Part shown: one piece after another, positions 4,665 to 26,568 of the stretch | Numbering within the stretch: position 1 is the stretch's first letter | Layout: each line of letters begins with the position of its first letter | Source of the DNA: Pseudooceanicola sp. | GTDB taxonomy: Bacteria; Pseudomonadota; Alphaproteobacteria; Rhodobacterales; Rhodobacteraceae | Direction of reading: 5' to 3' | Assembly: GCF_029213205.1 (NCBI RefSeq) | Contig: NZ_JARGNH010000009.1 | Span: forward strand, 62,001 to 126,000 | DNA: 64,000 nt | Made by a program: the position numbers and the translations under genes | The notes under the pieces: model-generated | Told to the model about the DNA's origin: nothing | What the model saw: the letters and a program-made list of their open reading frames with translations, nothing else | Databases searched by the model: none

Positions 4665-4704
4665 CGCCAGGGGAAAGGTTTTAACCAAGACTTTTCAAAA
4701 AAAC

Positions 4705-4734
4705 TTTGGCGCGGCTGGTCACGGTCGCGCCAAA
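4705..4734 (-). terminator. intrinsic terminator facing the minus strand
   Basis: Perfect 9-bp arms (TTTGGCGCG and CGCGCCAAA) enclose a 12-base loop. Read on the minus strand, the hairpin is followed by G and seven T, the classic intrinsic terminator layout. On the plus strand no U-run follows. It lies between two plus-strand genes, so it would stop antisense transcription coming from the tfoX/ilvD side. Confidence 0.55.
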
Positions 4735-4779
4735 TCGGCAGGGTGCGGATGCATCAAACAGATCCAAAAGGCAGGGCCA

Positions 4780-5460: not shown

Positions 5461-5486
5461 GATCAACGGCTAAGATCAACAATGCG

Positions 5487-9727: not shown

Positions 9728-9925
9728 TCAACCGTGCCACCCACCGCCAGCACCACACCGAACAAGCTCCGCGCCATCCTCGGCGGCGTAAATCCCGTCC
9801 GAGCGGTCATTGGCCTCGGCGATCACCAGCGAGAATGCGGCGCGGGAAAACGACAGGTCCATTTCGTCGCAGACCTGCTGCAGCCCGGCCTGAATGACGG
9901 AGAGGGTAATCGGGTCGAGACTCAT
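9728..9925 (-). pseudogene. hydantoinase B / N-methylhydantoinase subunit, N-terminal remnant
   Basis: A 65-codon frame beginning MSLDPITLSVIQAGLQQVCD and containing FSRAAFSLVIAEANDRSDGIY, which matches the first about 50 residues of HyuB subunits, normally 550-600 residues long. After YAAEDGAELV the homology ends and a stop follows, so more than 85 percent of the gene is missing. A ribosome site (AAAGGTG) precedes the ATG. It lies downstream of hyuA, with which HyuB normally forms the ATP-dependent amidohydrolase. The repeat copy A lies just beyond the break. Confidence 0.7.
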
Positions 9926-10185: not shown

Positions 10186-12117
10186 TCATGCCGCCCCGCC
10201 AATCGTCACCAGGATATTGCCGATCGCATCGCCCTCGGCCCGGTCGCCGGGCGGGATCAGGATGGTGGTGTCCATCTGTTCGATCACCGCCGGGCCGTCG
10301 ATCACCGCCCTGAGCGGCAGCGCTTCGCGCTGATAGATCGGTGTCGCCTGCCAGGTGCCATCGAACGACACCTGCCGGATGTCGCGCTGCGCCTCGGCCA
10401 GGGTCGCGCGCCGCCCCGCCGCCGGGATCAGCGTCGCCAGGTCAAACCCGCGGCGTTCGCCAATGACCGAGCAATTCACATTGACGACCGCCGCCCGGAT
10501 CGAGTCGAGCCGCACCCGGAACCGTTGCCAATAGGCGGCCTCGAACCGGGCCTGCAGCGCCTCGCGGCTGATCTCGGGCCCGTCCAGATCGACCCGCAGC
10601 AGGTGGGTCTGGCCGATGAATTGCATGTCGAGCGAATAGAGCGCCCGCACCCCGGTCAGTGGCAGGGTCTCGCGCGCGATCAGGGCGCGGCCCTCGGCGG
10701 CCTGGGCCTGCAGCACCGCGCTGAGCGCGTCCATATCGAGCTGGTCGAGCGGGCGGTTCAGCGTGGTCACGAAATCATGGCGCAGATCGGCGACCACACA
10801 GCCCAAGGCGTTGGTGATGCCGGGGCGGGCCGGGATCAGCACCCGGGGAATGCCCAATTCGCGGGCCAGGGCGCAGGCGTGCAACGGCCCGGCACCGCCA
10901 AAGGCGAAGAGGGCAAAATCGCGCGGGTCGACGCCCAGCGACACCGACACCATGCGGATCGCCCCGGCCATCTTGACATTGGCCAGCCGCAGCACCGCAT
11001 CGGCCGCCGCTTCTGTCGTCACGCCCAGCGGGTGGCCCAGGTGTTCGTCAAAGATCTGACGCAGGTGATCCAGGCTGACGCCGCCTTCGACCGAGTTCAG
11101 CCGCGCCGGATCCAGCCGCCCGAGCAGCAGGTTGGCATCCGAAATCGTCGGCAATTCACCGCCCCGGCCATAGCAGATCGGCCCCGGCGCCGCCCCGGCG
11201 CTGTCCGGCCCAACCTCCAGCAGACCGGCGGCATTGACCCGCGCGATCGAGCCGCCGCCCATGTCATAGGTGATCAGGTCGCCGATCCCCGCCGCCCGCC
11301 CGGTATAGGCCGCCGCCATCACCCCCGAGGCCGGGCCGGACATCACCGTCTTGGCCGCCTCGCGCGCCACGTTGGCCGCCGAAACCATGCCGCCATTGCC
11401 ATTCATCACCAGCAGTTCCCCGGCATAGCCCGCCGCCGCCAGCCGGTCTTTCAACCGGGTGACATAGCGGTCCAGCAGTGGCTGCACCGAGGCATTGACC
11501 GCCGCCGTCACCCCGCGCTCGAACTCGCGGCTTTCCGACAGCAAGGCATGGCCGAGGGTGATGTGCGAATTGGGCCAGAGTTCGCGCAGGATCTCGGCGG
11601 CGCGCAGCTCATGCGACGGGTTGGCATAGGCGTGCAGGAAATGCACCACCACCGAAACACAGCCTTGATCCAGCAGCGCCTGCGCCGCCGTTCCCAGTGC
11701 CACCTCGTCCAGCGCGGTCACCACCCGGCCCTGGGCATCCATCCGTTCGGGGACCTCGAGGCGCAGATCGCGCGGGATGATCGGGCGAAACACGCCCTTC
11801 ATCCCATAGGCCTGTGGCCGGGTGCGTCGGCCCAGTTCCAGAATGTCGCGAAATCCGGCGGTGGTGATCAGCCCGGTGCGCGCCAGCTTGCGCTCAAGCA
11901 CCGCATTGGTGGTGGTGCCATGCACGATCAAGGCGCAACGGCGCAGATCGGCCCCGGCCGCGTCCAGCGCCGCGATCACCCCGTCGGCCTGATTGGTCGG
12001 CGTGGTCGCCACCTTGGCCAGCCGCACCGCGCCGCTGCTCGGGTCGCAGAGCACTAGATCGGTGAAGGTGCCGCCGACATCGACGCCAATGATCTGATCG
12101 GCTCTGCGCTGGGTCAT
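10186..12117 (-). CDS. hyuA: hydantoinase A / 5-oxoprolinase-type ATP-dependent hydrolase subunit
   Basis: A 643-residue HyuA protein of the actin/hexokinase-like ATPase superfamily. The N-terminus contains IIGVDVGGTFTDLVL, the phosphate-1 loop, followed by HGTTTNAVLERK. A central YDMGGGSIARV block is the second phosphate motif, and FAFGGAGPLHA lies at about residue 415. With HyuB it would hydrolyse a cyclic amide (hydantoin, oxoproline or a related lactam) using ATP. HyuB is decayed here, so the enzyme is probably inactive, or HyuA acts with a distant partner. The ATG at 12117 has GAGG eight bases upstream. It is divergent from the FedB-like gene. Confidence 0.9.
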   Translation of the reverse strand: MTQRRADQIIGVDVGGTFTDLVLCDPSSGAVRLAKVATTPTNQADGVIAALDAAGADLRRCALIVHGTTTNAVLERKLARTGLITTAGFRDILELGRRTRPQAYGMKGVFRPIIPRDLRLEVPERMDAQGRVVTALDEVALGTAAQALLDQGCVSVVVHFLHAYANPSHELRAAEILRELWPNSHITLGHALLSESREFERGVTAAVNASVQPLLDRYVTRLKDRLAAAGYAGELLVMNGNGGMVSAANVAREAAKTVMSGPASGVMAAAYTGRAAGIGDLITYDMGGGSIARVNAAGLLEVGPDSAGAAPGPICYGRGGELPTISDANLLLGRLDPARLNSVEGGVSLDHLRQIFDEHLGHPLGVTTEAAADAVLRLANVKMAGAIRMVSVSLGVDPRDFALFAFGGAGPLHACALARELGIPRVLIPARPGITNALGCVVADLRHDFVTTLNRPLDQLDMDALSAVLQAQAAEGRALIARETLPLTGVRALYSLDMQFIGQTHLLRVDLDGPEISREALQARFEAAYWQRFRVRLDSIRAAVVNVNCSVIGERRGFDLATLIPAAGRRATLAEAQRDIRQVSFDGTWQATPIYQREALPLRAVIDGPAVIEQMDTTILIPPGDRAEGDAIGNILVTIGGAA

Positions 12118-12140
12118 CGCTTGCCTCGTATTGTTGGTGT

Positions 12141-12153
12141 GCAAATGATTTGC
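12141..12153. promoter_or_regulatory. inverted repeat upstream of hyuA, candidate operator
   Basis: GCAAAT and ATTTGC arms around one central base, 24 bp upstream of the hyuA start in the 138-bp divergent region. It is AT-richer than its surroundings. Only its position and symmetry support an operator role. Confidence 0.3.
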
Positions 12154-12255
12154 CTGCCAGGGGCGAGGTGTCAATTGCGGCGTTGCCTGGCATTGCCGGG
12201 TGCCGGGCGATTGTTGAGGCTTGGAACCGGGGCGCGAACCGGGCTAGATCAACGG

Positions 12256-13635
12256 ATGCGGCGGATTTGTGCACTCATATTGTTGATTTCAGCCCTGATA
12301 CCGGGGGCCGCCCTGGCGCATGCCTCCGAAGGCGGATTCGTGCTGTTGCTGCCGACCGGCCTCTATGCGGCGGGCGGAGTCACGGTGGTGGTTCTGACGG
12401 TGCTGCTGGTGGCGCTGCTGCCGGGGCGACAGAGCCTGGCGCTGTTTCGCCCGCTGCCGCTCTGGCGCGCTGCGCCGCGGGTTCGGGCGGGCTGGATCAG
12501 TCTGCTGGTGCTGGCGATCCTGGCCTGGGCGGTGATCCAGGGCTGGGTCGGCGAACAGGATCCGACCCATAATCCGCTGCCGCTGATCGTCTGGACCGGG
12601 GGCTGGGTGATCCTGCTGCTGATCCAGGCGATTCTGGGCGATGTCTGGCGGGCGCTGAATCCCTGGACCGGGCTCTGGTGGCGGCTTGGTCGTCCGGCGC
12701 CGCTGCGCTATCCGGCGGCGCTGGGGCATTGGCCCGCAGTGGTCGGGCTGCTGGCGCTGGCCGGGTTTCTGCTGGCCGATATCGCCCCCGCCGCGCCGGG
12801 GCGGCTGGCCTGGGTGGTGGCGCTCTATTGGGCGCTGCAAATGTTGGGGCTGTGCCTGTTCGGGCTGCCCTGGTTGCTGCGCGCCGAGGCGATCACCGTC
12901 ATGATGCGGGCCTATGTCGGGCTGAGCCTGCTGGGCCGCAGCCGGGGCAGGCGGGCGATCGGGCTGAGCGGCTGGCGCCGGATGGCGCAGCAGACGCCGC
13001 CGCCCGCCGGGCAGGCGGTGTTCATCCTGCTGATGCTGGCGATTGGCAGCTTTGACGGGGTGAACGAAACCTTTTGGTGGTTCGCCCGGATCGGGATGAA
13101 CCCGCTGGAATTCACCGGCCGGTCAGCGGTGGTCTGGCAAAGCCTGGGCGGGCTGGCCCTGGCCTGTCTGCTGCTGGTCGCGGTGTTTGCCGCCACCACC
13201 CGCGCCGGTCTGTGGCTGCTGCAGAGCACGCTGCCGCCGGGCCGGGTGATCCGCCTGTTGGTGCCGAGCATCCTGCCGATTGCCCTGGGCTATCACCTGG
13301 CGCATTACCTGCCGGTTCTGCTGGTCGAGGGGCAATACCTGGCACTGATGCTGAATGACCCCATGGAGACCGGCGTCAATCTGCTGGGGCTGGCGGGCGC
13401 ACATGTGACGACCGGGTTCTTCAACACCCAGGCGACGGTACGGGTGATCTGGCTGACCCAGGCGGGGGCAGTGGTGTTTGGTCATGTGATCGCGATTCTG
13501 ATGGCGCATGGGCTGGCGCTGCGCCTGTTCGAAACGCCGCGAAAGGCGGCGTTATCGCAAATTCCGCTGGCCATTTTCATGGTGCTCTACACGATTTTCG
13601 GACTTTGGCTGCTGGCCTCGCCACGCGGTGTTTGA
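12256..13635 (+). CDS. polytopic membrane protein, FedB (fenitrothion hydrolase)-like
   Basis: A 459-residue integral membrane protein with an N-terminal signal-like helix (MRRICALILLISALIPGAAL) and about ten further hydrophobic segments. The opening AHASEGGFVLLLPTGLYAAG and the NPWTGLWW block resemble proteins annotated after FedB, a component of bacterial fenitrothion hydrolysis; hydrolase activity should not be inferred. The first ATG that gives a signal-like start (12256) is used; its ribosome site is weak, so the start is uncertain. It is divergent from hyuA and 111 bp upstream of the LIV-type binding protein, possibly part of the same uptake unit. Confidence 0.75.
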   Translation: MRRICALILLISALIPGAALAHASEGGFVLLLPTGLYAAGGVTVVVLTVLLVALLPGRQSLALFRPLPLWRAAPRVRAGWISLLVLAILAWAVIQGWVGEQDPTHNPLPLIVWTGGWVILLLIQAILGDVWRALNPWTGLWWRLGRPAPLRYPAALGHWPAVVGLLALAGFLLADIAPAAPGRLAWVVALYWALQMLGLCLFGLPWLLRAEAITVMMRAYVGLSLLGRSRGRRAIGLSGWRRMAQQTPPPAGQAVFILLMLAIGSFDGVNETFWWFARIGMNPLEFTGRSAVVWQSLGGLALACLLLVAVFAATTRAGLWLLQSTLPPGRVIRLLVPSILPIALGYHLAHYLPVLLVEGQYLALMLNDPMETGVNLLGLAGAHVTTGFFNTQATVRVIWLTQAGAVVFGHVIAILMAHGLALRLFETPRKAALSQIPLAIFMVLYTIFGLWLLASPRGV

Positions 13636-13746
13636 CCCATGGTAAAACTCTGGACAACCATGTCTGGGGGGGCGAAACTTGTTCATCCCCGGTCAGACGG
13701 GACATGCGATCACCGCCAAGGATCAATTCCAGAAGGATTGCCTGCC

Positions 13747-15039
13747 ATGACAAAATCCACTGATCACCCGGTTTCCACCTCGCGCCGCACGGCGCTGAAG
13801 ACTCTGGGCGCCGTCGGGGCCGCTGCCACGCTGCCGCTCTGGTCGCGCTATGCCCAGGCCCAGACCAGCGAACCGATCCGCATCGGGTTCCAGAAACACG
13901 CGACCGGCATCGGCGCCGCCTATGGCCGCTGGTATGAGCGCACCACCGATGCGGCGGTCGCCAAGATCAACGCCGAGGGCGGGATCAATGGCCGGATGGT
14001 CGAGCTGGTGACCGAGGATGATGGTACCGACCCCAAGCGCGGTGCCGAAGTGCTTGAAAAATTTGCCAATCAAAGCAAATGCGATGTCGCATTCGGCACT
14101 CTGTACAGCCATGTGGTGATCGGTTCTGCGCCGCGCGCGGCTGAGCTGAAGCTGCCGTATTTCGTGGTCTCCGAAGGCCATCATGTCGCCTCGGGCATTC
14201 TCAACCGCTGGACCGTGCAGCCGGGCATCACCGATGTGAAAAGCCAGGTGCAGGCGATGGCGCCGTTTGTGAGCAAGACGCTCGGCAAAAAGGTCACGAT
14301 GATCTATCCTGACTTCGCCTTTGGCTATGATCACCGCGACAATTTCTCGGCGGCGATGAAGGCGCAGGGCGGCGAGGTTCTGGAAATGATCGCAGTGCCG
14401 CCGACCGAAACCTCGTTTACCAAGTATTTCCCCAAGATCCCCCGCGACACCGAGGTTCTGTATCACGTCATGGTCGGCCCTGCGGTGCTGACCTTTGTCA
14501 AGGAACTGGGCGAATTCTTTGGCCCGAACCGGCCAGAGCTTTTCGGCTTTATCGACAGCCTGGAAGCGGTCGATATGGCCTCGCCCGGCCTGGAATTCCT
14601 GGAAGGCACCTATTTCTGGGAAGGCATGCCGCGGTATCTGCAGCCGGACACCCCGGATTACGTCAAGACCTACCGCGACGCGGTCGGCATCGACGCCAAT
14701 GGCGCCTCGGTCAATGATGCCAAGGACGTGTCGACCGCCGCGCATATGTTCGGCTGCTGGGAAACCCTGCATGTCATCAAGGCCGGGATGGAGGCGTCGG
14801 GCTATGTCGGACCGAAGGACCGGCAAAAGCTGATCGAAGCGGTCGAGGCAATGAGCGTGATGCCCGCCGGGCTGGCACATCCGCAGGGCGGCAAGCTGTT
14901 CAATGGCAAGACCCACCAGGTGTTCGGCCCGCAATACATCAGCCAGGTCGAGAACGGCAAATTGGTGGTCAAGCACACCGCCGCGATCACCGACACGCTC
15001 TATGCGGATGAGGTGGATTACACCGCCCAGAGTTTCTGA
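13747..15039 (+). CDS. ABC transporter periplasmic binding protein, LIV/amide family
   Basis: A 430-residue type-I periplasmic binding protein (Peripla_BP_6 family). Residues 10-40 form a signal with a twin-arginine SRRTALK motif, a hydrophobic core and a YAQAQ cleavage region, so export by Tat is likely. The mature part starts IRIGFQKHATGIGAAYG, with INAEGGINGRMVELVTEDDG, the family's first lobe. The ATG at 13747 follows an AGAAGGA ribosome site. Length and lack of Leu-specific signatures place it with importers of amides, urea or aromatic acids as much as with leucine ones. It heads the operon with livHMGF. Confidence 0.93.
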   Translation: MTKSTDHPVSTSRRTALKTLGAVGAAATLPLWSRYAQAQTSEPIRIGFQKHATGIGAAYGRWYERTTDAAVAKINAEGGINGRMVELVTEDDGTDPKRGAEVLEKFANQSKCDVAFGTLYSHVVIGSAPRAAELKLPYFVVSEGHHVASGILNRWTVQPGITDVKSQVQAMAPFVSKTLGKKVTMIYPDFAFGYDHRDNFSAAMKAQGGEVLEMIAVPPTETSFTKYFPKIPRDTEVLYHVMVGPAVLTFVKELGEFFGPNRPELFGFIDSLEAVDMASPGLEFLEGTYFWEGMPRYLQPDTPDYVKTYRDAVGIDANGASVNDAKDVSTAAHMFGCWETLHVIKAGMEASGYVGPKDRQKLIEAVEAMSVMPAGLAHPQGGKLFNGKTHQVFGPQYISQVENGKLVVKHTAAITDTLYADEVDYTAQSF

Positions 15040-15145: not shown

Positions 15146-16072
15146 ATGGAATTCGGCCCCTATCTGATGCTCGCCATGCTCGAGGGCGCGGTGCTGGCCG
15201 CGGTGCTGGCGCTGATGGCCTCGGGCCTGTCGCTGACCTTTGGGGTGATGCGGGTGGTCAATGTCGCGCATGGCGAATTCTACATGCTGGGGGCGGTCAT
15301 CGCCTGGTTCGTCGCACATCTGGTCGGCGGTGGCGCGGCGCTGTCCTTTGTCGCCGCCGCGATCATTGCGCCGCTGGCGGTTGGCGTTCTGGCCGCCGCC
15401 GCCGATATCACCATCCTGAAGCGCATCGACTATGACCCGGAGCGCACCATCGTCGCCACCATCGGGCTGCTCTATGTGATCCAGCAGGTGACGCTGATGA
15501 CCTATGGCCCGGATGCGCGCCCGGTCGAACCGCCGTTCAATAGCCGGATCGCGCTGCCCTGGATCGAATGGGGCGAGGGCGGGCCGTCGCTCTATTTCCC
15601 CTGGGGGCTGTCGACCACCTCTTACAAGCTGTTCGTGATCGGCGCCGCTGCGGTGCTGATCCTGGCGATCCGACTGTTCATGACCCGTTCGCGCGCCGGT
15701 CTGATCATGCGGGCGACGCAGCTGGACAGCGACATGGCCACCGCCTTTGGCATCCCGGTCGAGCGGGTCTATGCGGCGGTGTTCGGCCTCGGCGCGGCAC
15801 TGGCGGCCCTGGCCGGGGTGCTGATCGTGCCGATCCAGCAGGCGCATTACCTGATGGGCGGCGACGCCCTGCTGCTGTCGTTCATCGTGGTGATCATCGG
15901 CGGCCTCGGCTCGATGGCCGGGACCATTGTGGCGGCGGTGCTGATCGGCATGTCCGACGGCATCATCTCGGTGTTTTTCTCACCGACCCTGGCCAAGATC
16001 ATCGCGACGCTGCTGGTGGCGCTGGTGCTGGTGTTCCGCCCGCAGGGCCTGTTTGGGACCCGCGACAGATGA
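15146..16072 (+). CDS. livH: LIV-family ABC transporter permease 1
   Basis: A 308-residue inner-membrane permease with about eight hydrophobic segments. The N-terminal LTFGVMRVVNVAHGEFYMLGA is the LivH hallmark, and a cytoplasmic loop contains SRAGLIMRATQLDSDMATAFG, which contacts the ATPases. An AAGGATCACG site precedes the ATG. The stop overlaps the next permease start (ATGA at 16069), as usual in liv operons. It is part of an importer whose substrate is inferred from context to be a small carboxylate or amide. Confidence 0.94.
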   Translation: MEFGPYLMLAMLEGAVLAAVLALMASGLSLTFGVMRVVNVAHGEFYMLGAVIAWFVAHLVGGGAALSFVAAAIIAPLAVGVLAAAADITILKRIDYDPERTIVATIGLLYVIQQVTLMTYGPDARPVEPPFNSRIALPWIEWGEGGPSLYFPWGLSTTSYKLFVIGAAAVLILAIRLFMTRSRAGLIMRATQLDSDMATAFGIPVERVYAAVFGLGAALAALAGVLIVPIQQAHYLMGGDALLLSFIVVIIGGLGSMAGTIVAAVLIGMSDGIISVFFSPTLAKIIATLLVALVLVFRPQGLFGTRDR

Positions 16073-17004
16073 GCCGCATCGTCGCCCTGCACCTCGGCCT
16101 GGTGGCGCTGTTGCTGGCGCTGAATTTCCTGCTGCCCGCCTACACCCATGGCAATATTGCCCGGATCATGGTGCTGGCGGTCTATGCGATCGGCTATAAC
16201 ATCGCCTTTGGCTATACCGGGCTGCTGTCGCTGGGCCATGCGATGTTCTTTGCCGCGGGCATGTATGGCACCGGGCTGATCCTGCGGTTCAGCGAGCTGT
16301 CGGCGCTGCCTGCCTGGGGGGTGGGGCTGGCCTGCGGCGCCGGTCTGGCGCTGGCGGTGGGGCTGCTGGCGCTGCGCACCGCCGGGGTGGCGTTCATGAT
16401 CGTGACGCTGATGTTCTCGCAGGCGGTCTATTTGATCATCCTTTATTTCGGCGCCTTTACCCGTGGTGACGAGGGTTTTGTGATTGAAGCCGCCGATCGG
16501 ATGATCTGGGGCCTCGACCTCGGCCAGCCGCAGGTCCGCTATCTGGCCGCCTGGGCGCTGTTCTCCGTGGTCTTGCTGATCTCGCTGCGGCTGGTGCGCC
16601 GCCCGGCGGGCCGGGTGTTCGTCGCGATCCGCGAGAATGAACTGCGGGCGCGGTTGCTGGGCTATGACACCTTCCGCTACAAGCTGTTGGCGCTGGTGAT
16701 CTCAGGGACCATTTCGGCGGCCTCGGGTGGCGCCTATGCGCTGCTCTTCGGCTATGCCGGGGCCAGTTTCGCCACGGTGCAATATTCGATCTTTCCGTTG
16801 CTCTGGGTGCTGCTGGGCGGCGCGGGCACCGTGCTCGGCCCGTTCCTTGGCACCTTGTTCATGTTCTACCTGATCGACATCGCCTCGGGTCTGACCGAGG
16901 CCTATATGCTGATTGCCGGTCTGGCGCTGATCGGCCTCACCCTGTTCGCGCCACAGGGCATCGCCGGGGTCATCCGGGCGCGGCTGTGGAAGGATCTGCC
17001 ATGA
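16069..17004 (+). CDS. livM: LIV-family ABC transporter permease 2
   Basis: A 311-residue inner-membrane protein of the LivM family with about eight to nine hydrophobic segments. Recognisable blocks are YAIGYNIAFGYTGLLSLGHA near residue 40 and the cytoplasmic coupling loop GRVFVAIRENELRARLLGYD near residue 190. It overlaps livH by four bases and livG by four bases (17001-17004), indicating tight translational coupling. It forms the translocation pore with LivH. Confidence 0.94.
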   Translation: MSRIVALHLGLVALLLALNFLLPAYTHGNIARIMVLAVYAIGYNIAFGYTGLLSLGHAMFFAAGMYGTGLILRFSELSALPAWGVGLACGAGLALAVGLLALRTAGVAFMIVTLMFSQAVYLIILYFGAFTRGDEGFVIEAADRMIWGLDLGQPQVRYLAAWALFSVVLLISLRLVRRPAGRVFVAIRENELRARLLGYDTFRYKLLALVISGTISAASGGAYALLFGYAGASFATVQYSIFPLLWVLLGGAGTVLGPFLGTLFMFYLIDIASGLTEAYMLIAGLALIGLTLFAPQGIAGVIRARLWKDLP

Positions 17005-17726
17005 GCCTGATCCTGTCGACGCGCGGATTGTCCAAATCCTTTCAAGGGTTGCGGGCGGTGCATGAGGTCGATTTCGACCTGCCGCAGCATCAGGTCCGGG
17101 CGCTGATCGGCCCGAATGGCGCGGGCAAGACCACCTTCGTGTCGATGCTGATCGGGCGGCTGGCGGCGAGCGCAGGCCGCATCTGCTTCGATGGTCGCGA
17201 TGTCACCGATATGCCCGCCCATGCCCGCGTGGCCCTCGGCATGGCCTATACCTTTCAGATCACGTCGGTTTTTGCCCGGCTCAGCGCGCATGAGAATGTG
17301 GCGCTGGCGGCGCGCCGCCATCTCGGCGCCGATCAGGATGCGGTCGAGGCCGAGGTGCAGGAGGCGCTGGGCCGCACCGGCCTGGCCGATCGCGCCGACG
17401 CGCTGGCTCAGGACCTCTCCTATGGCCATCAGCGGTTGCTGGAAATCGCCATGGGGCTGGCACAGCGGCCTCGGCTGATGATCCTCGATGAGCCGACCCA
17501 GGGCCTGGCCGAAGGTGAGATCGCCGCGTTCAAGGCGTTGATCCGCGACCTGGCGCGGGACACCACGATCCTGCTGATCGAACATAATATGGCGGTGGTG
17601 ATGGAGCTGGCCGACCGGATCACGGTGTTGAATTTCGGCGAGATCCTGGCCGAGGGCACCCCGGCGGAGATCCATGCCGATGCCCGGGTGCAGGCGGCCT
17701 ATCTGGGGAGTGGCGGCGATGATTAG
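17001..17726 (+). CDS. livG: LIV-family ABC transporter ATP-binding protein 1
   Basis: A 241-residue ABC ATPase with Walker A GPNGAGKTTF (residues 36-45), a family-typical signature LSYGHQRLLEIAMGL instead of LSGGQ, and Walker B LMILDEPTQGL. The switch histidine is in LLIEHNM. LivG-type ATPases pair with LivF to drive import through LivHM. A 177-bp spacer containing a long inverted repeat separates it from livF, unusual for an otherwise overlapping operon. Confidence 0.94.
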   Translation: MSLILSTRGLSKSFQGLRAVHEVDFDLPQHQVRALIGPNGAGKTTFVSMLIGRLAASAGRICFDGRDVTDMPAHARVALGMAYTFQITSVFARLSAHENVALAARRHLGADQDAVEAEVQEALGRTGLADRADALAQDLSYGHQRLLEIAMGLAQRPRLMILDEPTQGLAEGEIAAFKALIRDLARDTTILLIEHNMAVVMELADRITVLNFGEILAEGTPAEIHADARVQAAYLGSGGDD

Positions 17727-17903: not shown

Positions 17904-18611
17904 ATGCTGAGGCTGGAGGGGATCAGCGCCGGATATGGCCCGGCGATCGTGCTGCGCGATCTCAGCCTCAGCGCCGCGCCGGGGCGGATCACCTGCCTGA
18001 TGGGGCGCAATGGTGCGGGCAAGACCACGACGTTGAAGGCGATCATGGGGCTGGTGCGCCCCAGCGCCGGGCGGATCATGCTGGGCGATCAGGTGATCTC
18101 GGATCTGCCGGCGCATCGGGTGGCTGGGCAGGGGATCGGTTATGTGCCGCAGGGCCGGGGGCTGTTTTCCGAACTGAGCGTGGCGCAGAACCTGCGCATC
18201 GGGCTGATGGCGCGGCGCGGCGACGCGGCCGAGACCGCTGCGATCCGGGCCGAGGTTCTGACCCGGTTTCCGCGCCTGGCCGAGCGGCTGGATCAGCGCG
18301 CCGACACCCTGTCTGGAGGCGAGCAGCAGATGTTGTCGATGGCCCGCGCGCTCTGCCTGCGGCCCCGGCTGCTGCTGCTGGACGAACCGACCGAGGGCTT
18401 GCAGCCGAGCATGATCGAGGCAATCCGCCAGGTTATCATGTCGCTGCGCGACGCGGGCGCGGCGGTGCTGTTGGTCGAACAGCGGATCGACGCGGTTCTG
18501 GCGATTGCCGATCATGTCCATGTGATTGAAAACGGGCGCAATCTGGAAGATTTCGACGCCGCCGCCCTGACCCGGGCGCCGGAGCGTCTGCGCGCCCATC
18601 TCGGGGTCTGA
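17904..18611 (+). CDS. livF: LIV-family ABC transporter ATP-binding protein 2
   Basis: A 235-residue ABC ATPase of the LivF type. Walker A is GRNGAGKTTT (residues 34-43), the signature is LSGGEQQMLSMARAL and Walker B is LLLLDEPTEGL, with a LVEQRI switch region. The N-terminus MLRLEGISAGYG is typical. Its stop lies 4 bp from the convergent marR stop. It completes the importer begun at 13747. Confidence 0.94.
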   Translation: MLRLEGISAGYGPAIVLRDLSLSAAPGRITCLMGRNGAGKTTTLKAIMGLVRPSAGRIMLGDQVISDLPAHRVAGQGIGYVPQGRGLFSELSVAQNLRIGLMARRGDAAETAAIRAEVLTRFPRLAERLDQRADTLSGGEQQMLSMARALCLRPRLLLLDEPTEGLQPSMIEAIRQVIMSLRDAGAAVLLVEQRIDAVLAIADHVHVIENGRNLEDFDAAALTRAPERLRAHLGV

Positions 18612-18614
18612 GGC

Positions 18615-19031
18615 TCAGCCGAGGCGGGCCAGCAGCGCCAGCAGGGTGGCGCTTTCCTGCTCGGACAACGGCGCAAGGGTTTCGGCGCTGATCTGATGCC
18701 CGGTTCCGACCTGCGCAGCAAACCAATCCCGCCCCTCGGGGCTGAGCCGCAGACTCAGGCGGCGCTGATCGTCAGGATCGGGTCCGGCCGCGATCAGCGC
18801 CTTGGCGCGCAGCCGGTCGACCACCCCCTTGATCGTCGCCCCGTCCATCGCCACCGCCCGCCCCAGGGCGTTTTGCGACATCGCACCGCGTTCGTACAGC
18901 CGGGCCAGCACCGCGAATTGCATCGGCGTCACCGCATCGATCCGGGCGGCAAAGAGTGCCAGGTGGCGCTGATTGGCGCGGCGCATCAGAAACCCGACCT
19001 GATCGTCGAGCCGATAGTCAGATTGGCCCAT
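18615..19031 (-). CDS. MarR-family transcriptional regulator
   Basis: A 138-residue winged-helix regulator. The recognition region AMSQNALGRAVAMDGATIKGVVDRL and the wing with DPDDQRRLSLRLSPEG (about residues 50-95) are standard MarR. MarR proteins usually repress adjacent genes and release DNA on binding an aromatic or related ligand. It is divergent from the molybdenum hydroxylase genes, with a GTATAC-centred dyad in between (19095-19108), so it is the likely regulator of the catabolic genes to its right. The ATG at 19031 gives the family's normal length. Confidence 0.9.
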   Translation of the reverse strand: MGQSDYRLDDQVGFLMRRANQRHLALFAARIDAVTPMQFAVLARLYERGAMSQNALGRAVAMDGATIKGVVDRLRAKALIAAGPDPDDQRRLSLRLSPEGRDWFAAQVGTGHQISAETLAPLSEQESATLLALLARLG

Positions 19032-19094: not shown

Positions 19095-19108
19095 GTTTGT
19101 ATACCAAC
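19095..19108. promoter_or_regulatory. dyad centred on GTATAC, candidate MarR operator
   Basis: GTTTGTATACCAAC is a 14-bp dyad with one mismatched pair, 64 bp upstream of the marR start and just before the truncated FAD-subunit coding region. Position, symmetry and size fit a MarR-family operator; no binding data. Confidence 0.4.
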
Positions 19109-19132
19109 GCCCCCGACGCTCATAGCGCCCAA

Positions 19133-19714
19133 CTGAAAGCGGCGACGCGCGAGGTCGGATCGGTGCAGATCCAGAATGCGGGCACCCTCGGCGGCAATCT
19201 CTGCAACGCTTCCCCCGCCGCTGACGGGGTGCCGGCCCTGCTGAGCCTTGAGGCGCGGGTCGAGCTGCGCAGCGAGAGCCGCACAAGGGTGCTGCCGCTC
19301 AGTGATTTCCTGCTCGGGCCGCGCCGGACCGCACTGGCGGCGGGCGAGATCCTGAGCGCGGTGCTGATCCCTGATGTCTCTGGGCAGGGCGGCTTTCTCA
19401 AGCTTGGTGCGCGGCGCTATCTGGTGATCTCGATTGCCATGGTGGCGGCGCGGATCGCGGTAAGCGAGGGGCGGATCAGTGCCGCCGCGCTGGCGGTCGG
19501 GGCCTGTTCGCCGGTGGCCTGCCGCCTGCCAGACCAGGAGGCGGCGCTGATCGGGTGCCCGGTGGCGGCGGCGGTGTCGGCCATCGACGCGGCGCTGATC
19601 TTGCCGGTGCTGGCGCCAATCGACGACCCGCGGGCCGATGCCGGGTATCGCCAGATCGCGGCGGTCGAATTGCTGCGCCGATTGGTCGGGGACATGACGG
19701 GGGCGGCGCGATGA
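19133..19714 (+). pseudogene. CoxM/XdhB-like FAD-binding subunit, 5'-truncated
   Basis: About 193 residues matching the second half of FAD-binding subunits of molybdenum hydroxylases: REVGSVQIQNAGTLGGNL followed by ASPAADGVPALL, then a C-terminal CO_deh_flav_C-like domain. Complete proteins have about 280-290 residues and begin with the FAD-pyrophosphate segment, which is missing. Upstream of 19133 the frame runs through the marR promoter with no family similarity and no start codon with a ribosome site. A GTG at 19163 could start a shorter product. The 3' end is intact and overlaps the next gene by ATGA. Probably a deletion relic. Confidence 0.65.
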
Positions 19715-22434
19715 GCCTTGATCTGAAGGTCAACGGCCGACAACACCAGGTGAGCGCCGCGCCGGGGCGTCGCCTGTCGGATGTGCTGCGCCACGATCTG
19801 CGTCTGACCGGCACCAAGACCGGCTGTGACGCGGGCGATTGCGGCGCCTGCACGGTGCTGATCGACGGCGCCCCGGTCTGTGCCTGTCTGACCCCGGTTG
19901 CCCAGGTGGCCGGGCGAGCGGTCGAAACCGTCGAGGCGCTGGCCGGGATGCCGGAAACCGCCGCCCTGCAGGCCGCGTTTCTGCGCCACGGCGCGGCACA
20001 ATGCGGGATCTGCACGCCGGGTATGTTGATGGCCGCGACGGCGCTGATCCGCCTTGTGCCGCAGCCGAGCCGGGCCGAGGTCGAGGCGGCGCTTGGCGGG
20101 GTGCTCTGCCGCTGCACCGGATACACCAAGATCATCGATGCGGTCTGTGACGCCGGGCCGGGGGCGATGCCAGTACAGCCCATTGCCGGGGCGGCGGTCG
20201 GCGCCCGGCTGCCACGGCTCGACGGCGGCGACAAGGTGACCGGGGTCGAGCGGTTTGGCGCCGATCACCTGCCCGAGGGCGCGCTCTGGCTGCGGGCGAT
20301 CCGCTCGCCACACCCGGCGGCGCGGTTCCGGCTGGGCGATGTCGCGGCTTGGGCGGATGCGGTCGGGGTGCAGGTGTTCACCGCCGCCGATATCCCCGGG
20401 GTCAACCGGTTCGGGGTGATCCCGGCCTTTATTGATCAGCCGGTGCTGGCCGAGGGTGAGGTGCGGCTGCGCGGTGAGGCGGTTGCGCTGATCGCCGGGC
20501 CGCGCGCGGCGGTGGAGGCGGCGGATCTGGCCGGGTTTCCGGTAACCTGGGAGGTGCAGGAGGCGATCAGCGATCCGGGGCAGGCCATCGGCGCCCGCCC
20601 GGTGCAGCCCAGCCGCCCCGACAATGTGCTGATCCGTGGCCAGGTCATCCGTGGTGATGCCGAGGCGGCGCTTGCCGCTGCTGCGCATCTGGTGGAAGGA
20701 ACGGTCGAAACCGGCTTTGTCGAACACGCCTATATCGAGCCCGAGGCGGGGGCGGCCTGGATGGAGGGGGACACGCTTTGCATCCGCGCCTGCACCCAGG
20801 CGCCGGTGATGGATCAGGAAAGCGTCGCCAGCCTGCTGGCCCTGCCGCTGGAGCGGGTGCGCATCCTGCCCTCGGGTACTGGCGGCGGCTTCGGCTCCAA
20901 GCTTGATCTGTCGGTGCAGCCGCTGATCGGGCTGGTGGCGCTGAAAACCGGCCAACCTGCCGTGATGGCCTATTCGCGCGCCGAATCGCTGCAGGTGAGC
21001 ACCAAGCGTCACCCGGCCCGGATGGCGGCGCGGATCGGTTGTGACGCTTCGGGGCGGATCACCGGAATGACGTTCACCGGCGATTTCGACACCGGCGCCT
21101 ATGCCTCCTGGGGGCCAACGGTGGCGAACCGGGTGCCGGTGCATGCCTCTGGGCCCTACTACACCCCGGCCTACCGGGCCGAGGCCGCGGCGCTGCACAC
21201 CAACAACCCGATTTCCGGGGCGTTTCGCGGCTTTGGCGTGCCGCAGGCGGCGATCTTGCAAGAGACGCTTTATGACGATCTGGCGCAGAGCACCGGCATC
21301 GACCGGCTGGCGTTCCGGCGGTTGAATGCGCTGAGCGAGGGCCAGCCGACGGTCTGCGGCCAGGAGCTGGGCGGCGTCGGCATCGGCGCCTGTCTGGAGG
21401 CATTGCAGCCGCATTGGGACCGGGCGCGGGCCGCGGCGGCGGCGTTCAATACGGCGGCAGAGACCAGTGACGGCGCGATCCGGCACGGCGTCGGGGTGGC
21501 CTCCTGCTGGTATGGCTGTGGCAATACCGCATTGCCCAATCCCTCGACCATGCGGCTGGGGCTGAGCGCGGCAGGGCGGCTGGTGCTGCACCAGGGGGCG
21601 GTCGATATCGGTCAGGGGTCGAACACGGTGATCGCGCAGATCTGCGCCGATGCGCTGGGGCTGCCGCTGGCGGATTTCGACCTGATCGGACCGGACACCG
21701 CGCTGACCCCGGATGGTGGCAAGACCTCGGCTTCGCGGCAGACCTATGTTTCTGGCAAGGCGGCGCTTCTCGCCGGGGCGGCACTGCGGGCGCAGATCCT
21801 GGCGCTGACCAACCGGGCTGCCGACGCGGTGCTGGCGCTGGAGGGGGCGCGGCTGAGCGTCAGGGATGCCAGCGGTGAAAGCCTGCTCGACCTGGCGCAA
21901 ATGCCCGGCGGCGCAGGCGGGTATCTGCTGATGGCGGAGGAAAGCTATGACCCGCCGACCCGGCCCTTGGGTGAAAACGGGCAGGGCGCACCCTATGCGG
22001 TCTATGGCTTTGGTGCGCAACTCGCTGAGGTTGCGGTGGATTGCGCCCTGGGCACGGTCCGGGTGCGGCGCATCATTGCCGCGCATGATCTTGGCCGGGT
22101 GATCAACCCGCTGCTGGCCGAAGGCCAGATCGAGGGCGGCATTGCCCAGGGGTTGGGTCTGGCGCTGATGGAGGACTACCTGCCGGGGCGGAGCGAGAAC
22201 CTGCATGATTACCTGATCCCGACCAGTGGCGACATGCCCGAGATTGTGCCGATCCTGCTCGAAGTGCCCGATCCCGAGGGGCCGATGGGCGCCAAGGGTC
22301 TGGGTGAACATGCGCTGATCCCGACCGCTCCGGCGATTCTGAACGCGATCCGGGATGCGAGCGGGGCACGGATCACCCGGTTGCCGGCGCTGCCGCACCG
22401 GGTGCTGAAGGCGATCGGGGAGGCGGCGGGATGA
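19711..22434 (+). CDS. molybdenum hydroxylase, fused 2Fe-2S and molybdopterin subunits (aldehyde oxidoreductase/XDH family)
   Basis: A 907-residue single-chain protein of the xanthine oxidase family. The N-terminal ferredoxin-type 2Fe-2S ligands are C39, C44, C47 and C59; the second cluster uses C98, C101, C133 and C135 (CGICTPGM ... CRCTGY). The molybdopterin part follows from about residue 190, with GTGGGFGSKLD, GAFRGFGVPQ and GQGSNTVIAQI, and the catalytic glutamate in GAKGLGEHA (E866). Domain order and length match Desulfovibrio aldehyde oxidoreductase (MOP), which needs no FAD subunit. In context it probably hydroxylates an N-heterocycle or aldehyde. The ATG overlaps the FAD-subunit stop. 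Confidence 0.92.
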   Translation: MSLDLKVNGRQHQVSAAPGRRLSDVLRHDLRLTGTKTGCDAGDCGACTVLIDGAPVCACLTPVAQVAGRAVETVEALAGMPETAALQAAFLRHGAAQCGICTPGMLMAATALIRLVPQPSRAEVEAALGGVLCRCTGYTKIIDAVCDAGPGAMPVQPIAGAAVGARLPRLDGGDKVTGVERFGADHLPEGALWLRAIRSPHPAARFRLGDVAAWADAVGVQVFTAADIPGVNRFGVIPAFIDQPVLAEGEVRLRGEAVALIAGPRAAVEAADLAGFPVTWEVQEAISDPGQAIGARPVQPSRPDNVLIRGQVIRGDAEAALAAAAHLVEGTVETGFVEHAYIEPEAGAAWMEGDTLCIRACTQAPVMDQESVASLLALPLERVRILPSGTGGGFGSKLDLSVQPLIGLVALKTGQPAVMAYSRAESLQVSTKRHPARMAARIGCDASGRITGMTFTGDFDTGAYASWGPTVANRVPVHASGPYYTPAYRAEAAALHTNNPISGAFRGFGVPQAAILQETLYDDLAQSTGIDRLAFRRLNALSEGQPTVCGQELGGVGIGACLEALQPHWDRARAAAAAFNTAAETSDGAIRHGVGVASCWYGCGNTALPNPSTMRLGLSAAGRLVLHQGAVDIGQGSNTVIAQICADALGLPLADFDLIGPDTALTPDGGKTSASRQTYVSGKAALLAGAALRAQILALTNRAADAVLALEGARLSVRDASGESLLDLAQMPGGAGGYLLMAEESYDPPTRPLGENGQGAPYAVYGFGAQLAEVAVDCALGTVRVRRIIAAHDLGRVINPLLAEGQIEGGIAQGLGLALMEDYLPGRSENLHDYLIPTSGDMPEIVPILLEVPDPEGPMGAKGLGEHALIPTAPAILNAIRDASGARITRLPALPHRVLKAIGEAAG

Positions 22435-22499
22435 ACGCGGTGCGACCGGTCTCTGCGGCCCATATCGCAGACATAGCCACCCACACCCGCCCGGGCTGC

Positions 22500-22521
22500 G
22501 CCTGCCTGCCCCCCGGCAGGC
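22500..22521. terminator. GC-rich hairpin between the hydroxylase and reductase-like genes
   Basis: Perfect 7-bp arms GCCTGCC and GGCAGGC with an 8-base loop in the 156-bp spacer. No U-run, so it may be a processing or pausing element rather than a terminator. Confidence 0.3.
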
Positions 22522-22590
22522 GCATTCGCGCCCGCCCAGTCCGGCGCAACCCTTCGGTACTGTCGCCACGTTGCAACCAGGCGTTAACTC

Positions 22591-24039
22591 ATGACCACCC
22601 CTGACGCCCGCCCCGAGAAGGTCCGCTGCGATGCCTGCCCGGTGATGTGCTATGTCGCCGAAGGCCGCACCGGCGCCTGTGACCGCTATGCCAATCACAA
22701 TGGCCAGATCGTGCGCTGTGACCCGCTGACCATCCTCGAGGCGGCAACGGAAAGCGGCACGCCGCTGCGCCCGTTCCTGAACGCCGATTGGGACGGCAGC
22801 CTCGCCACCGATGACGGGCGCATTGTCACCGCGATCGGCGCGGGCACCACCTATCCGGATTTCAAACCCGCCCCGTTTATCGTCTCGCGGAAGTTCGACG
22901 GGATCGACGCCGTCACCGTGGTGACCGAGGCGATCTATTCCTATTGCGGCGTCAAGGTGAAGATCGACACCGACCGCCACCTCGGCCCGGAGGGCGCAAG
23001 GGTCTTGGCCAAGGGCGAGGTCGTCGGGCTGGTCATCACCTCTGAATATGGTTCGCAAATGCTCTCGCTCGGCGGTGTCGATCACCTGACAGGCGGCTCG
23101 AAATCCGAAGGCCGGGCGACCTGCGACACCTTGCTGGCGCTGTGCAATTGTGAACCGGTCACGTTGCAGATCGATGGCGGCGCGGAGGTGATCGTGCAGG
23201 CCGGGCAGCCGCCGATTGTCGACGGCCAGCCCGAGGCGCGGATGCGGGTCGGCTGCGGTTCGGCCACCATCGGCATGTTCGCCGGCCAATGGCAGGGGTT
23301 GGTGGACGAGGTGGTGGTGGTCGATGACCACATCACCGGCGTGGTCAGCGAACACCAGGCCGGCAAGGTGATCGGCTGGGCCGACACCGGCATCCGGATC
23401 AAGGGCCACCGTTCGACTCCCGGGCGCTATTTCCGGGTGGCCGAGCCCGGCCTTGGCTGGGGCGGCACCAATATCGACGATCCGCTGGCGATCTTGAATC
23501 CCTGGCTGGCGAAAAAGGGCGCGCGACCCGGGCTGACGCTGCTGATGGTTTCAACCACCGGAGAGCATGCTGCCTATTATGTTCTGGATGACGATCTGCA
23601 GCCGCGGCGGCAAGAGATACCCGCAGCCCTGCAGCCCTCGGTCGATCTGATTGCGGAAAACTGCGAACGGGCGCTCTGCACGGTGATGTTTCAGGCCGGT
23701 GCGGGGGGATCGTTGCGCTCAGGTGTCACCCAGAACCCGGTGCGGCTGACCCGGGCGGTGCAATCCGGCGCGGTCAGGGTCACGGTCGGCGGCGCGCCCG
23801 CCTATATCTGGCCCGGCGGCGGCATCACCCTGATGGTCGATGTCACCGAGCTGCCACCAAACAGCTTTGGCTATGTGCCGACACCGGCGCTGGTGGCGCC
23901 GCTGGAATTCACCTGTGACCGTGTCACCTTCCGGGCGTTGGGGGGCCATGACGACGCGGTGCGCGATATTTCGGATGTGCTGGAAAACGGCAATGAATAC
24001 GGGGCCGAGCATCGGATCTTGCCGGGGCGCACAGAATGA
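22591..24039 (+). CDS. 6-hydroxynicotinate reductase-like iron-sulfur flavoprotein
   Basis: A 482-residue protein of the family named after Eubacterium barkeri 6-hydroxynicotinate reductase, an enzyme reported to contain covalently bound flavin and several Fe-S clusters. An N-terminal Fe-S motif is visible: C13, C16, C20 and C30 (CDACPVMC ... GAC). Further cysteines are at 43, 119, 178, 185, 187 and 222. Residues 164-170 read DHLTGGS, resembling the ApbE flavinylation consensus DxxTGAT/S. The stop overlaps the UPF0280 start (ATGA at 24036). The likely role is reductive dearomatisation of a hydroxylated N-heterocycle; the actual substrate is unknown. Family assignment is from memory of sequence features, not a search. 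Confidence 0.75.
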   Translation: MTTPDARPEKVRCDACPVMCYVAEGRTGACDRYANHNGQIVRCDPLTILEAATESGTPLRPFLNADWDGSLATDDGRIVTAIGAGTTYPDFKPAPFIVSRKFDGIDAVTVVTEAIYSYCGVKVKIDTDRHLGPEGARVLAKGEVVGLVITSEYGSQMLSLGGVDHLTGGSKSEGRATCDTLLALCNCEPVTLQIDGGAEVIVQAGQPPIVDGQPEARMRVGCGSATIGMFAGQWQGLVDEVVVVDDHITGVVSEHQAGKVIGWADTGIRIKGHRSTPGRYFRVAEPGLGWGGTNIDDPLAILNPWLAKKGARPGLTLLMVSTTGEHAAYYVLDDDLQPRRQEIPAALQPSVDLIAENCERALCTVMFQAGAGGSLRSGVTQNPVRLTRAVQSGAVRVTVGGAPAYIWPGGGITLMVDVTELPPNSFGYVPTPALVAPLEFTCDRVTFRALGGHDDAVRDISDVLENGNEYGAEHRILPGRTE

Positions 24040-24854
24040 CCGGGCCGCAGGCGCAGATGCTGAGCGGAGACCGGCTGCACCTCAACCAGGGACCGATTGA
24101 CCTGATCCTCGGGGCGAGAGGGCCCGGTCGCGCGGCGTTTTTTGCCGCCGCCACCGCGCGGTTTCAGACGGTTCTGCAGGAATTGGTGGCCGAGCTTGCC
24201 AACCTGCGCCGTGCCGATCCGCCGCCGCTATCCGGCCCGGTGGCGCGGCGGATGCAGGCCGCCATCACCCCCTTGGCGGTGGAGTTCGTCACCCCGATGG
24301 CCGCCGTGGCCGGGGCGGTGGCCGATGAGATCCTGCAGACCGCACCGCCGGAGCTGCCAATGGCCTATGTCAACAATGGCGGAGATATCGCCTTTCAACT
24401 TGCGCCGGGTCAGAGCTTTGCGGTGGCGATGGTCGGCGGAAGCCTCACTCTTCCCGCCGCCGCGCCCTGGCGCGGCCTCGCCACCTCGGGGCGCGGCGGA
24501 CGCTCACATTCACTGGGGATCGCCGACGCGGTCACCGTCATCGCCAGAACCGCCGCCCAGGCCGATGCCGCCGCCACGATGATTGCCAATCGCGTCGATC
24601 TGCCCGGCCATCCGGCGATCAGCCGTATGCCGGCGTGCCATCTGTCGCCGGACAGCGATCTCGGCGACCGCCCCGTCACCACCGGCCTTGCCCGCCTCAC
24701 CGCCGCCGAAACCGCCCAGGCGCTGGCGGCGGGCGCCGCCTATGCCGAAACCCTGCAGCTGCGCGGCCTGATTGGTGGCGCGCAGCTCTGCCTCAACGGC
24801 GCCACCCGCCAAACTGGCCCCGATATCTTGACCAAGGACCCTGCCCATGCCTGA
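24036..24854 (+). CDS. UPF0280 family protein (ApbE-related)
   Basis: A 272-residue protein of UPF0280, a family placed in the ApbE superfamily. ApbE-like marks are VNNGGDIAF (residues 112-120, compare NxGGD), ATSGRGGRSHSLG (149-161) and DAVTVIARTAAQADAAAT (164-181). ApbE proteins transfer FMN from FAD to a Thr/Ser of a target protein. The metal-binding HIIDP motif of ApbE is replaced by HSLGIAD. It is translationally coupled to the reductase-like gene upstream and overlaps the next gene by 8 bp. Flavin transfer to the reductase-like partner is an inference. Confidence 0.82.
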   Translation: MTGPQAQMLSGDRLHLNQGPIDLILGARGPGRAAFFAAATARFQTVLQELVAELANLRRADPPPLSGPVARRMQAAITPLAVEFVTPMAAVAGAVADEILQTAPPELPMAYVNNGGDIAFQLAPGQSFAVAMVGGSLTLPAAAPWRGLATSGRGGRSHSLGIADAVTVIARTAAQADAAATMIANRVDLPGHPAISRMPACHLSPDSDLGDRPVTTGLARLTAAETAQALAAGAAYAETLQLRGLIGGAQLCLNGATRQTGPDILTKDPAHA

Positions 24855-25425
24855 TTTTACCCTGCGCAAGACGATGATTTTTCTGGAAGATATCCAGCAC
24901 GACGGCGGCCCCGTCGGTCCGGTCCGGCAGCGCGGCGCGATTGTCGCGCTGGTGCGCAACCCGTTTGCTGGCGGCTATACCCCGGATCTGCAATCGGCGA
25001 TGGACGACCTGAAACCGCTGGGCCTGCTGATGACTGATAGGCTGATCGCCGCGATGGGCGGTCGCGACGGGATCGACGGCTATGGCAAGGCGGCGATGTG
25101 CGGCACCGGCGGTGAATTGGAACACACCGCGCTCTGGCACGTCCCGGGCGGTTATGCGATGCGCGAGCGGCTGGGCGAAGCGCGGGCGATTGTGCCCTCG
25201 GCGATGAAGCAGGGCGGGCCGGGCATCCGCATCGACGTGCCGCTGGGGCATATCAATGCCGCCTATGTGCGGTCGCATTTCGATGCGATGGAGGTCGGGC
25301 TGCCGGATGGCCCGCGCCCGGATGAATTGCTGCTGGCGCTGGCGATGGCGCGCGGTGGCCGCATCCATGCGCGGATGGGCGGGCTGCGTGTCGATCAGAT
25401 CAGTGTCGGCGACGGGCTGCGCTAA
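24847..25425 (+). CDS. AA_synth (amino acid synthesis) family protein
   Basis: A 192-residue protein that fits the Pfam AA_synth family, whose members often occur in catabolic clusters with LIV transporters despite the name. Conserved-looking blocks are VALVRNPFAGGY near residue 35, GKAAMCGTGGELEHTA near residue 80 and a VPSAMKQGGPGIRIDVPLGH segment near residue 118. No catalytic mechanism is established that I know of. It overlaps the UPF0280 gene by 8 bp, so it belongs to the same operon, and its stop overlaps the convergent reductase gene's stop. Confidence 0.8.
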   Translation: MPDFTLRKTMIFLEDIQHDGGPVGPVRQRGAIVALVRNPFAGGYTPDLQSAMDDLKPLGLLMTDRLIAAMGGRDGIDGYGKAAMCGTGGELEHTALWHVPGGYAMRERLGEARAIVPSAMKQGGPGIRIDVPLGHINAAYVRSHFDAMEVGLPDGPRPDELLLALAMARGGRIHARMGGLRVDQISVGDGLR

Positions 25426-26450: not shown

Positions 26451-26568
26451 CGGCGGGCCTTTCCTGGCAGTTGCGGGTGGCGGCACGATCCGCAGCGGGC
26501 CGCACCGGTTGCGACGATAGGCAGTGGCTGCGCTGCGGGCAACCGCCAAGCGCGGCACCCGCCCCCGG

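Follow-up and report, generated by a model that had tools for sequence, protein, structure and literature searches.

Probable exchange of ring openers in reductive nicotinate clusters, and an apparently decayed copy in Pseudooceanicola sp.

The subject of this analysis is a gene cluster in a stretch of 64,000 nucleotides of Pseudooceanicola sp. (RefSeq assembly GCF_029213205.1, contig NZ_JARGNH010000009.1, positions 62,001 to 126,000 of the forward strand; hereafter the window), in which genes for a molybdenum hydroxylase, a protein of the 6-hydroxynicotinate reductase (Hnr) family, a UPF0280 protein and an AA_synth protein follow one another. Comparison with related loci makes us fairly confident that the cluster belongs to the reductive nicotinate-catabolic type, in a variant where HyuAB, a lactamase of the hydantoinase/oxoprolinase family, stands in for an enamidase, and that the copy in the window is probably decaying. 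As a reductive nicotinate cluster it is ordinary; what is of interest is the HyuAB variant, which is widespread, repeatedly exchanged and accompanied by a dedicated UPF0280 protein.

In the pathway that we propose, nicotinate would enter through Liv-type uptake and would be converted by the molybdenum hydroxylase into 6-hydroxynicotinate, which Hnr, using ferredoxin electrons, would reduce to 1,4,5,6-tetrahydro-6-oxonicotinate (THON), a six-membered lactam. HyuAB, in place of the enamidase, would then open the lactam using ATP, and the resulting enamine would shed ammonia to give 2-formylglutarate, to be processed onward via glutarate. We take from the literature the hydroxylation, the THON reduction, the opening by enamidase and the onward processing via glutarate; uptake of nicotinate by the Liv-type transporter, nicotinate as the substrate of the fused hydroxylase, ferredoxin as the donor for Hnr and the action of HyuAB on THON we infer. 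Nicotinate is fermented by E. barkeri (Eubacterium barkeri) to propionate and pyruvate. The likeness to that fermentation lies in a hydroxylation followed by reduction of 6-hydroxynicotinate to THON; the difference is that E. barkeri uses the enamidase, for which the genome of the window gave no match at E 1e-20.

Neither the route nor a cluster of this kind is new. The reductive step from 6-hydroxynicotinate to THON was first observed in E. barkeri and later in the aerobe Azorhizobium caulinodans, where nicotinate catabolism proceeds via glutarate, and a homologue from Bradyrhizobiaceae strain SG-6C, with 42% identity to E. barkeri Hnr, lies in a conserved nicotinate cluster (PMC3511419). The same route, with a bifunctional enamidase, is described for E. 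barkeri in PMC9304392. The window resembles the nicotinate clusters of A. caulinodans ORS571, Bradyrhizobium japonicum USDA110 and SG-6C in its THON route and in their aerobic hosts; it differs in that those clusters are described as carrying the genes for steps one to three (PMC3511419), the enamidase presumably among them, whereas the window has damaged HyuAB genes instead. Two unknown proteins of the published clusters may be UPF0280 and AA_synth. Thus, of the original prediction, which had been made from the DNA letters of the window, the reading as a reductive N-heterocycle route with a molybdenum hydroxylase and an Hnr-family protein agrees with domain matches and plasmid annotations, but the pathway can be called neither uncharacterised nor unusual in an aerobe, given its publication for Azorhizobium, including the aerobic A. 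caulinodans, and Bradyrhizobiaceae (PMC3511419).

Ring openers accompanying Hnr

Two kinds of candidate ring opener were found in the comparison of 111 hnr loci of at least 14 kb, out of 126 (15 shorter ones were excluded); 65 of those compared come from the nearest named relatives, and the sample leans toward the window's side. An amidohydrolase (enamidase) gene is present in 15 loci, and the one product tested matches PDB entry 2VUN, which we take to be the E. barkeri enamidase, at E 4.8e-109. In other hnr loci HyuA and HyuB are encoded, which are related to the subunits of caprolactamase. With HyuA or HyuB in 32 loci, no locus holds both kinds.

The same exclusion was seen in whole genomes, searched with one enamidase query and one HyuB query, with orthologue thresholds of 50% identity for the enamidase and, for HyuB, of 70% in the window's family and 65% in a wider set. 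First, hnr is present in 103 of the 295 family genomes, and among the matches listed for these, 44 genomes have only an enamidase orthologue, 56 only a HyuB orthologue, none both and three neither. Second, the 192 Hnr-negative genomes of the family hold no enamidase orthologue (two of them, G048 and G235, have enamidase relatives at only 42-44% identity), and HyuB gave partial matches in two others, G022 and G155. Third, the wider set, namely 80 of 91 additional genomes in which the class and phylum draws had revealed hnr, divides into 38 with the enamidase and 42 with HyuB, none having both or neither. Taken together, and among the matches listed, the 183 Hnr-positive genomes comprise 82 with an enamidase orthologue, 98 with a HyuB orthologue, none with both and three with neither. 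These three are the genome that contains the window; G147, a genome of 73% completeness; and G014, in which stops break up the Hnr match and the best HyuB match, at 61% identity, is broken up as well.

A quickly built tree, which took in 146 of the 183 Hnr sequences, demands at least 11 changes between the enamidase and HyuB types. A single HyuB-type clade is rejected by the approximately unbiased (AU) test (log-likelihood 673.6 worse, p-AU 2.9e-66), which was made after the tree was seen and whose two groups derive from gene content. No alignment column separates the Hnr proteins of the two types (67 and 78 rows) at 90%. Moreover, a locus of the HyuB type (L218) and two of the enamidase type (L221 and L196) share one gene order, namely hnr, UPF0280, a double AA_synth and a 2-oxoacid:acceptor oxidoreductase, and L218 and L221 also have in common a succinate-glutarate CoA-transferase-like gene.

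Because the orthologues are mutually exclusive in 183 genomes and the Hnr tree demands these repeated switches, HyuAB probably replaces the enamidase in the same pathway. The original prediction saw no enamidase and held the ring-opening genes to be missing or represented only by the nearby hyuA. In relatives a hyuB gene pairs with hyuA, and the ring opener has probably been replaced, not lost. The vague reading of missing genes thus gives way to a sharper statement, namely that one of two unrelated enzymes, whose orthologues are never together, accompanies Hnr in 180 of 183 genomes. If correct, this would give a role to a frequent subgroup of HyuAB and account for the many Alphaproteobacteria that bear Hnr without an enamidase.

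Opening of THON by HyuAB would be chemically reasonable, since THON is a lactam with a six-membered ring, and so is delta-valerolactam, which OplA/OplB opens in an ATP-dependent reaction (PMC11033972). HyuA and HyuB belong to the family of the caprolactamase CapAB and the 5-oxoprolinase OplAB (PMC8453981, PMC11033972), and HyuA of L152, a related locus that we used as reference, contains the DMGGT motif, which binds ATP phosphate in CapA (PMC8453981). A literature search, judged from its listing and with most subscription papers out of reach, found no paper plainly joining HyuAB to nicotinate.

Several points weigh against this interpretation. The orthologue thresholds were placed at the identity gap after it had been seen (in the family, HyuB at 74% or more for full and 72% or more for partial matches against 61% or less, and enamidase at 69% or more, with a single match at 51%, against 44% or less; in the wider set, HyuB at 65% or more against 58% or less, and enamidase at 69% or more against 42% or less). 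The family search for HyuB scored four candidates per genome among the matches listed (six for the enamidase), so that short HyuB pieces could escape, and of the two Hyu subunits the genome-wide search covered HyuB. Beside its hnr cluster the enamidase-type locus L196 (genome G591) also carries a remoter hyuA-hyuB pair (L196:637-4066), which fell outside the limit of the wider-set HyuB search; exclusion between the enamidase and HyuAB paralogues is thus not absolute. HyuA and HyuB of L152 score 502 and 312 bits against caprolactamase equivalog cut-offs of 1000, and in this they differ from CapAB, as they do in a substrate that is here only proposed. For E. barkeri Hnr the comparison is the published one, with the SG-6C homologue (PMC3511419). 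Ferredoxin-related genes occur in a minority of loci and none was seen in the window's cluster, and two of five CoA-transferase genes scored (L088, L162) are not close to the glutarate type. Finally, the window's copy is on paper without a working opener and may not run the pathway, and its deletions could be mimicked by assembly error.

State of the copy in the window

Three genes of the window's cluster are damaged. First, the hyuB frame ends after 65 codons, of which some 50 are homologous, as compared with 583 residues in the full-length relative from L152, so that a full HyuB subunit with its metal site is not encoded. Second, hyuA has an in-frame gap of 41 residues right after YDMGG, which interrupts the DMGGT phosphate-2 motif. 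Third, the molybdenum hydroxylase that adjoins hnr has 2Fe-2S, molybdenum and FAD parts, but its FAD subunit is without some 78-91 N-terminal residues of the FAD-binding domain, a range that depends on the query. The original prediction had placed its genes correctly, with four reading frames and overlaps where it said (ATGA at 24036, 8 bp at 24847), but the damage to the neighbouring FAD-subunit gene and to both hyu genes had escaped it.

The copy thus looks decayed or misassembled. Because these deletions go together with the absence of hydroxylase genes beside hnr in two related loci (L090 and L107, genomes G1034 and G1035), which have kept hnr, UPF0280 and AA_synth, parts of the pathway seem to be eroding in this lineage, and the window's strain may have lost nicotinate degradation. 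Neither related genome has a close copy of the fused hydroxylase, the best match being at 33% identity. Each carries a region with a hydroxylase of another type, NicB, elsewhere (L178, L179).

We considered the alternative that the deletions are artefacts of assembly or binning and that the pathway of the strain is intact, which we hold to be rather unlikely. The genome is a draft of 60 contigs, 95.6% complete; three separate deletions within one cluster are unusual; and other nearby genes appear full-length by eye. However, all three deletions lie within one stretch of a 135 kb contig with the gene order of the Maritimibacter locus, the rest of the genome yielded a distant match (E 8.1e-61, with 4 of 9 candidates scored) but no HyuB orthologue, and L090 and L107 make erosion in the lineage plausible.

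Hnr, its neighbours and alternative substrates

The name Hnr rests on the public annotation of plasmid records and on PMC3511419. No Pfam or NCBIfam model matched the 482-residue protein of the window, and no relative of solved structure was found by profile up to E 10, the best single-sequence match (E 0.17) being at chance level. Among 26 plasmid records with a match of 58-72% identity, 17 name it 6-hydroxynicotinate reductase and three a hypothetical protein, four list no gene and two are unannotated; annotated plasmids with similar hnr surroundings include genes named nicA, nicB, nicR and fpr. Beyond the family, hnr was found in 68 of 385 genomes drawn from the class and in 32 of 398 from the phylum (the three draws share a few genomes), and a scan of named genomes gave at least 593 confirmed relatives, of which the best 80 were kept. 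None of the 183 Hnr-positive genomes has two full matches. The protein is very uniform (72% mean column identity over 17 sequences), and seven cysteines are invariant across 146 sequences, four of them forming an N-terminal CX2CX3CX9C motif, which fits an iron-sulphur protein. Covalently bound flavin and iron-sulphur clusters were reportedly found in E. barkeri Hnr by Alhapel in 2006, along with such genes in nine Proteobacteria.

The fused hydroxylase accompanies hnr in 92 of the 111 loci and a cytochrome-c NicB type, annotated in public records as nicotinate dehydrogenase, in nine; the two are never together, and neither is in view in 10. A livH match (at least 50% identity) lies near hnr in 56 loci, so it is not the case, as the original prediction had allowed, that the gene trio always occurs without hydroxylase and transporter. 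A nicotinamidase-type gene is near hnr in 26 loci (7 with Hyu genes, 2 with the enamidase, 17 with neither in view), and the one scored reached 217 bits with a cut-off of 174. Beside such a gene, L139 has a CitMHS_2 (citrate-transporter-family) gene at 4046-5470, whose cluster, c13, is found in 12 loci.

Regarding electron supply, ferredoxin-NADP-reductase-like genes occur near hnr in 16 loci (9 with Hyu genes, 5 with the enamidase, 2 with neither in view), the protein scored having 132 bits, below the model cut-off of 390, and genes for subunits of the 2-oxoacid:acceptor oxidoreductase, a possible dedicated reducer of ferredoxin, adjoin hnr divergently in L196, L218 and L221. Because of these two kinds of neighbour, gene content suggests that Hnr takes its electrons from ferredoxin. 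Further down the route, genes resembling that of succinate-glutarate CoA-transferase accompany hnr in two enamidase-type loci, L209 and L221, and in one of the HyuB type, L218, with 508-540 bits against a cut-off of 750 (511 bits for L218 and 508 for L221). Acyl-CoA dehydrogenases of L218 and L192 score below the cut-off of every model. An MmsA-like aldehyde dehydrogenase was discarded as a general next step, high identity being found in just two of the 111 loci (L125, L208). Downstream of the hnr cluster and transporter, the SAR116 loci L127, L130 and L135 have a second molybdenum hydroxylase and a lactonase-like metallo-hydrolase.

The two opener types could also reflect two substrates. According to this explanation, which we find improbable, the enamidase branch serves nicotinate and the HyuAB branch a related compound. 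Trigonelline, homarine or another N-methylated pyridine carboxylate could be that compound, and an N-methylhydantoinase-like enzyme would then open the lactam formed on its reduction. Rieske-type oxygenases can demethylate, and genes of this type were seen near hnr in L164, L191, L192 and L221, although three of the four belong to enamidase-type genomes. One public record gives the name N-methylhydantoinase to HyuA and HyuB from a cluster of this kind, many of the carriers belong to the Rhodobacteraceae and bear marine names, and the osmolyte homarine is taken up fast by a marine member of the group (PMC12817926). Against this, the zero co-occurrence of orthologues would be odd for two independent pathways, the changes on the Hnr tree are many and no Hnr column follows the type, the same fused hydroxylase is found in 8 of 15 enamidase loci and 25 of 32 Hyu loci, nicotinamidase-type genes are near both, and a literature search, judged mostly from listings, showed no link between homarine or trigonelline and the hnr cluster.

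Least probable, and to be given little credence, is that Hnr, UPF0280 and AA_synth form a general cassette reducing several hydroxylated heterocycles, with the nearby molybdenum hydroxylase setting the substrate: two hydroxylase types accompany hnr, neither fits a curated NCBIfam nicotinate model, and G1034 and G1035 are without a close copy of the fused type, but with NicB annotated as it is both types may yield one product, and Hnr is very uniform.

UPF0280, AA_synth and the layout of the cluster

Returning to the HyuAB variant of a nicotinate cluster, its UPF0280 protein (UPF0280 and COG2122 being one family) matches the NCBIfam model NF003322 with 328.5 bits (cut-off 290); this model is titled hypothetical protein, and the name UPF0280 comes from the public annotation of orthologues that also match it. 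The gene is near hnr in all 111 loci and AA_synth in 99, in agreement with the single cluster originally predicted. As hnr itself is present in just 103 of 295 family genomes, the gene order of hnr and UPF0280 is conserved far beyond chance, and both UPF0280 and AA_synth are supported as members of the hnr operon. By match positions, AA_synth is double in 13 of the 15 enamidase clusters, whereas the 32 Hyu clusters have it single in 22, double in 6 and not at all in 4.

In 100 family genomes, searched at E 1e-15, UPF0280 was found in 40 of 41 Hnr-positive and in none of 59 Hnr-negative ones, the single Hnr-positive genome without it being 82% complete. On account of this distribution we propose, with fair confidence, that UPF0280 is an Hnr-specific accessory protein, which may serve in Hnr maturation; the family would thereby be tied to one enzyme. 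Compared with ApbE profiles it aligns over 96 columns (probability 85, E 6e-6), including the GGD/GE, SG and ADxxAT regions, and its nearest structure is 2O34. However, no invariant or nearly invariant histidine was found in 27 UPF0280 sequences, whereas His 223 is invariant in 12 ApbE rows and, by our own equation, would correspond to His257 of Vibrio cholerae ApbE, which is catalytic (PMC12052999). The ApbE target motif D-x-x-[ST]-G-A-[ST] is present in none of 146 Hnr sequences, and the likeness of COG2122 to ApbE seems to stop short of the flavin-binding region (PMC5764234). Because of these three observations, we treat flavin transfer by UPF0280 as no more than a possibility.

Elsewhere, COG2122 has been tied to homocysteine synthesis together with DUF39 (PMC5764234). 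The protein studied here shares with that system a distant relationship to ApbE and differs from it in having Hnr as its partner; DUF39 (PF01837), considered as a partner, was absent from 20 genomes searched, the window's included. Our boldest proposal, which we put forward tentatively, has two parts: UPF0280 would be a dedicated cytosolic enzyme of Hnr maturation, from an ApbE branch without the catalytic histidine, perhaps adding a covalent flavin at an unspecified site, and HyuAB would be a second, ATP-driven way in which aerobes reductively open the pyridine ring, often swapped with the enamidase.

The features of the cluster are listed in Table 1.

Table 1. Genes of the hyu-liv-hnr cluster, in positions of the window.
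Feature	Position	Strand	Basis or remark
hyuB remnant	9728..9925	-	ATG and about 50 homologous codons, stop after 65 codons; tblastn (HyuB of L152 and HyuB of the Maritimibacter locus), translation
hyuA, predicted ATP-binding subunit of HyuAB lactamase, hydantoinase/oxoprolinase family	10186..12174, start approximate	-	Hydantoinase_A, Hydant_A_N, Hydant_A_C; alignment
Conserved hydrophobic, membrane-protein-like gene	12250..13635, start approximate	+	no Pfam match; accompanies transporter
livK-type substrate-binding protein of ABC transporter	13741..15039, start approximate	+	domain searches, locus comparison
livH-type permease	15146..16072	+	
livM-type permease	16069..17004	+	
livG-type ATPase	17001..17726	+	
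livF-type ATPase	17904..18611	+	
MarR-family regulator, conserved in cluster	18615..19031	-	Pfam, locus comparison
FAD-subunit gene of hydroxylase, N-terminally short	19106..19714	+	homology onset 19106-19133, varies with query
Fused 2Fe-2S/molybdopterin subunit, xanthine-dehydrogenase-family hydroxylase	19711..22434	+	start ATG 19711; domain searches
6-hydroxynicotinate reductase (Hnr) family protein, 482 aa	22591..24039	+	CX2CX3CX9C at residues 13, 16, 20, 30
UPF0280/COG2122 protein, ApbE superfamily, 272 aa	24036..24854	+	NCBIfam, profile comparison
AA_synth (DUF1185) protein, 192 aa	24847..25425	+	Pfam

Three of the junctions are overlaps: the start of the fused subunit overlaps the end of the upstream FAD-subunit remnant by ATGA, the UPF0280 reading frame overlaps that of Hnr in the same manner, and AA_synth overlaps UPF0280 by 8 bases. 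The Pfam domains are PF20256, PF02738 and PF01799 in the molybdenum hydroxylase and PF06684 in the AA_synth protein. The membrane-protein-like gene has a match near hnr in 32 of the 111 loci. Downstream of the cluster lie a ketopantoate-reductase-like gene (25422-26558, minus strand) and a long gene that by eye resembles anthranilate synthase (26749-28905, plus strand), and this pair is also found 3' of the cluster in L085, L090 and L107.

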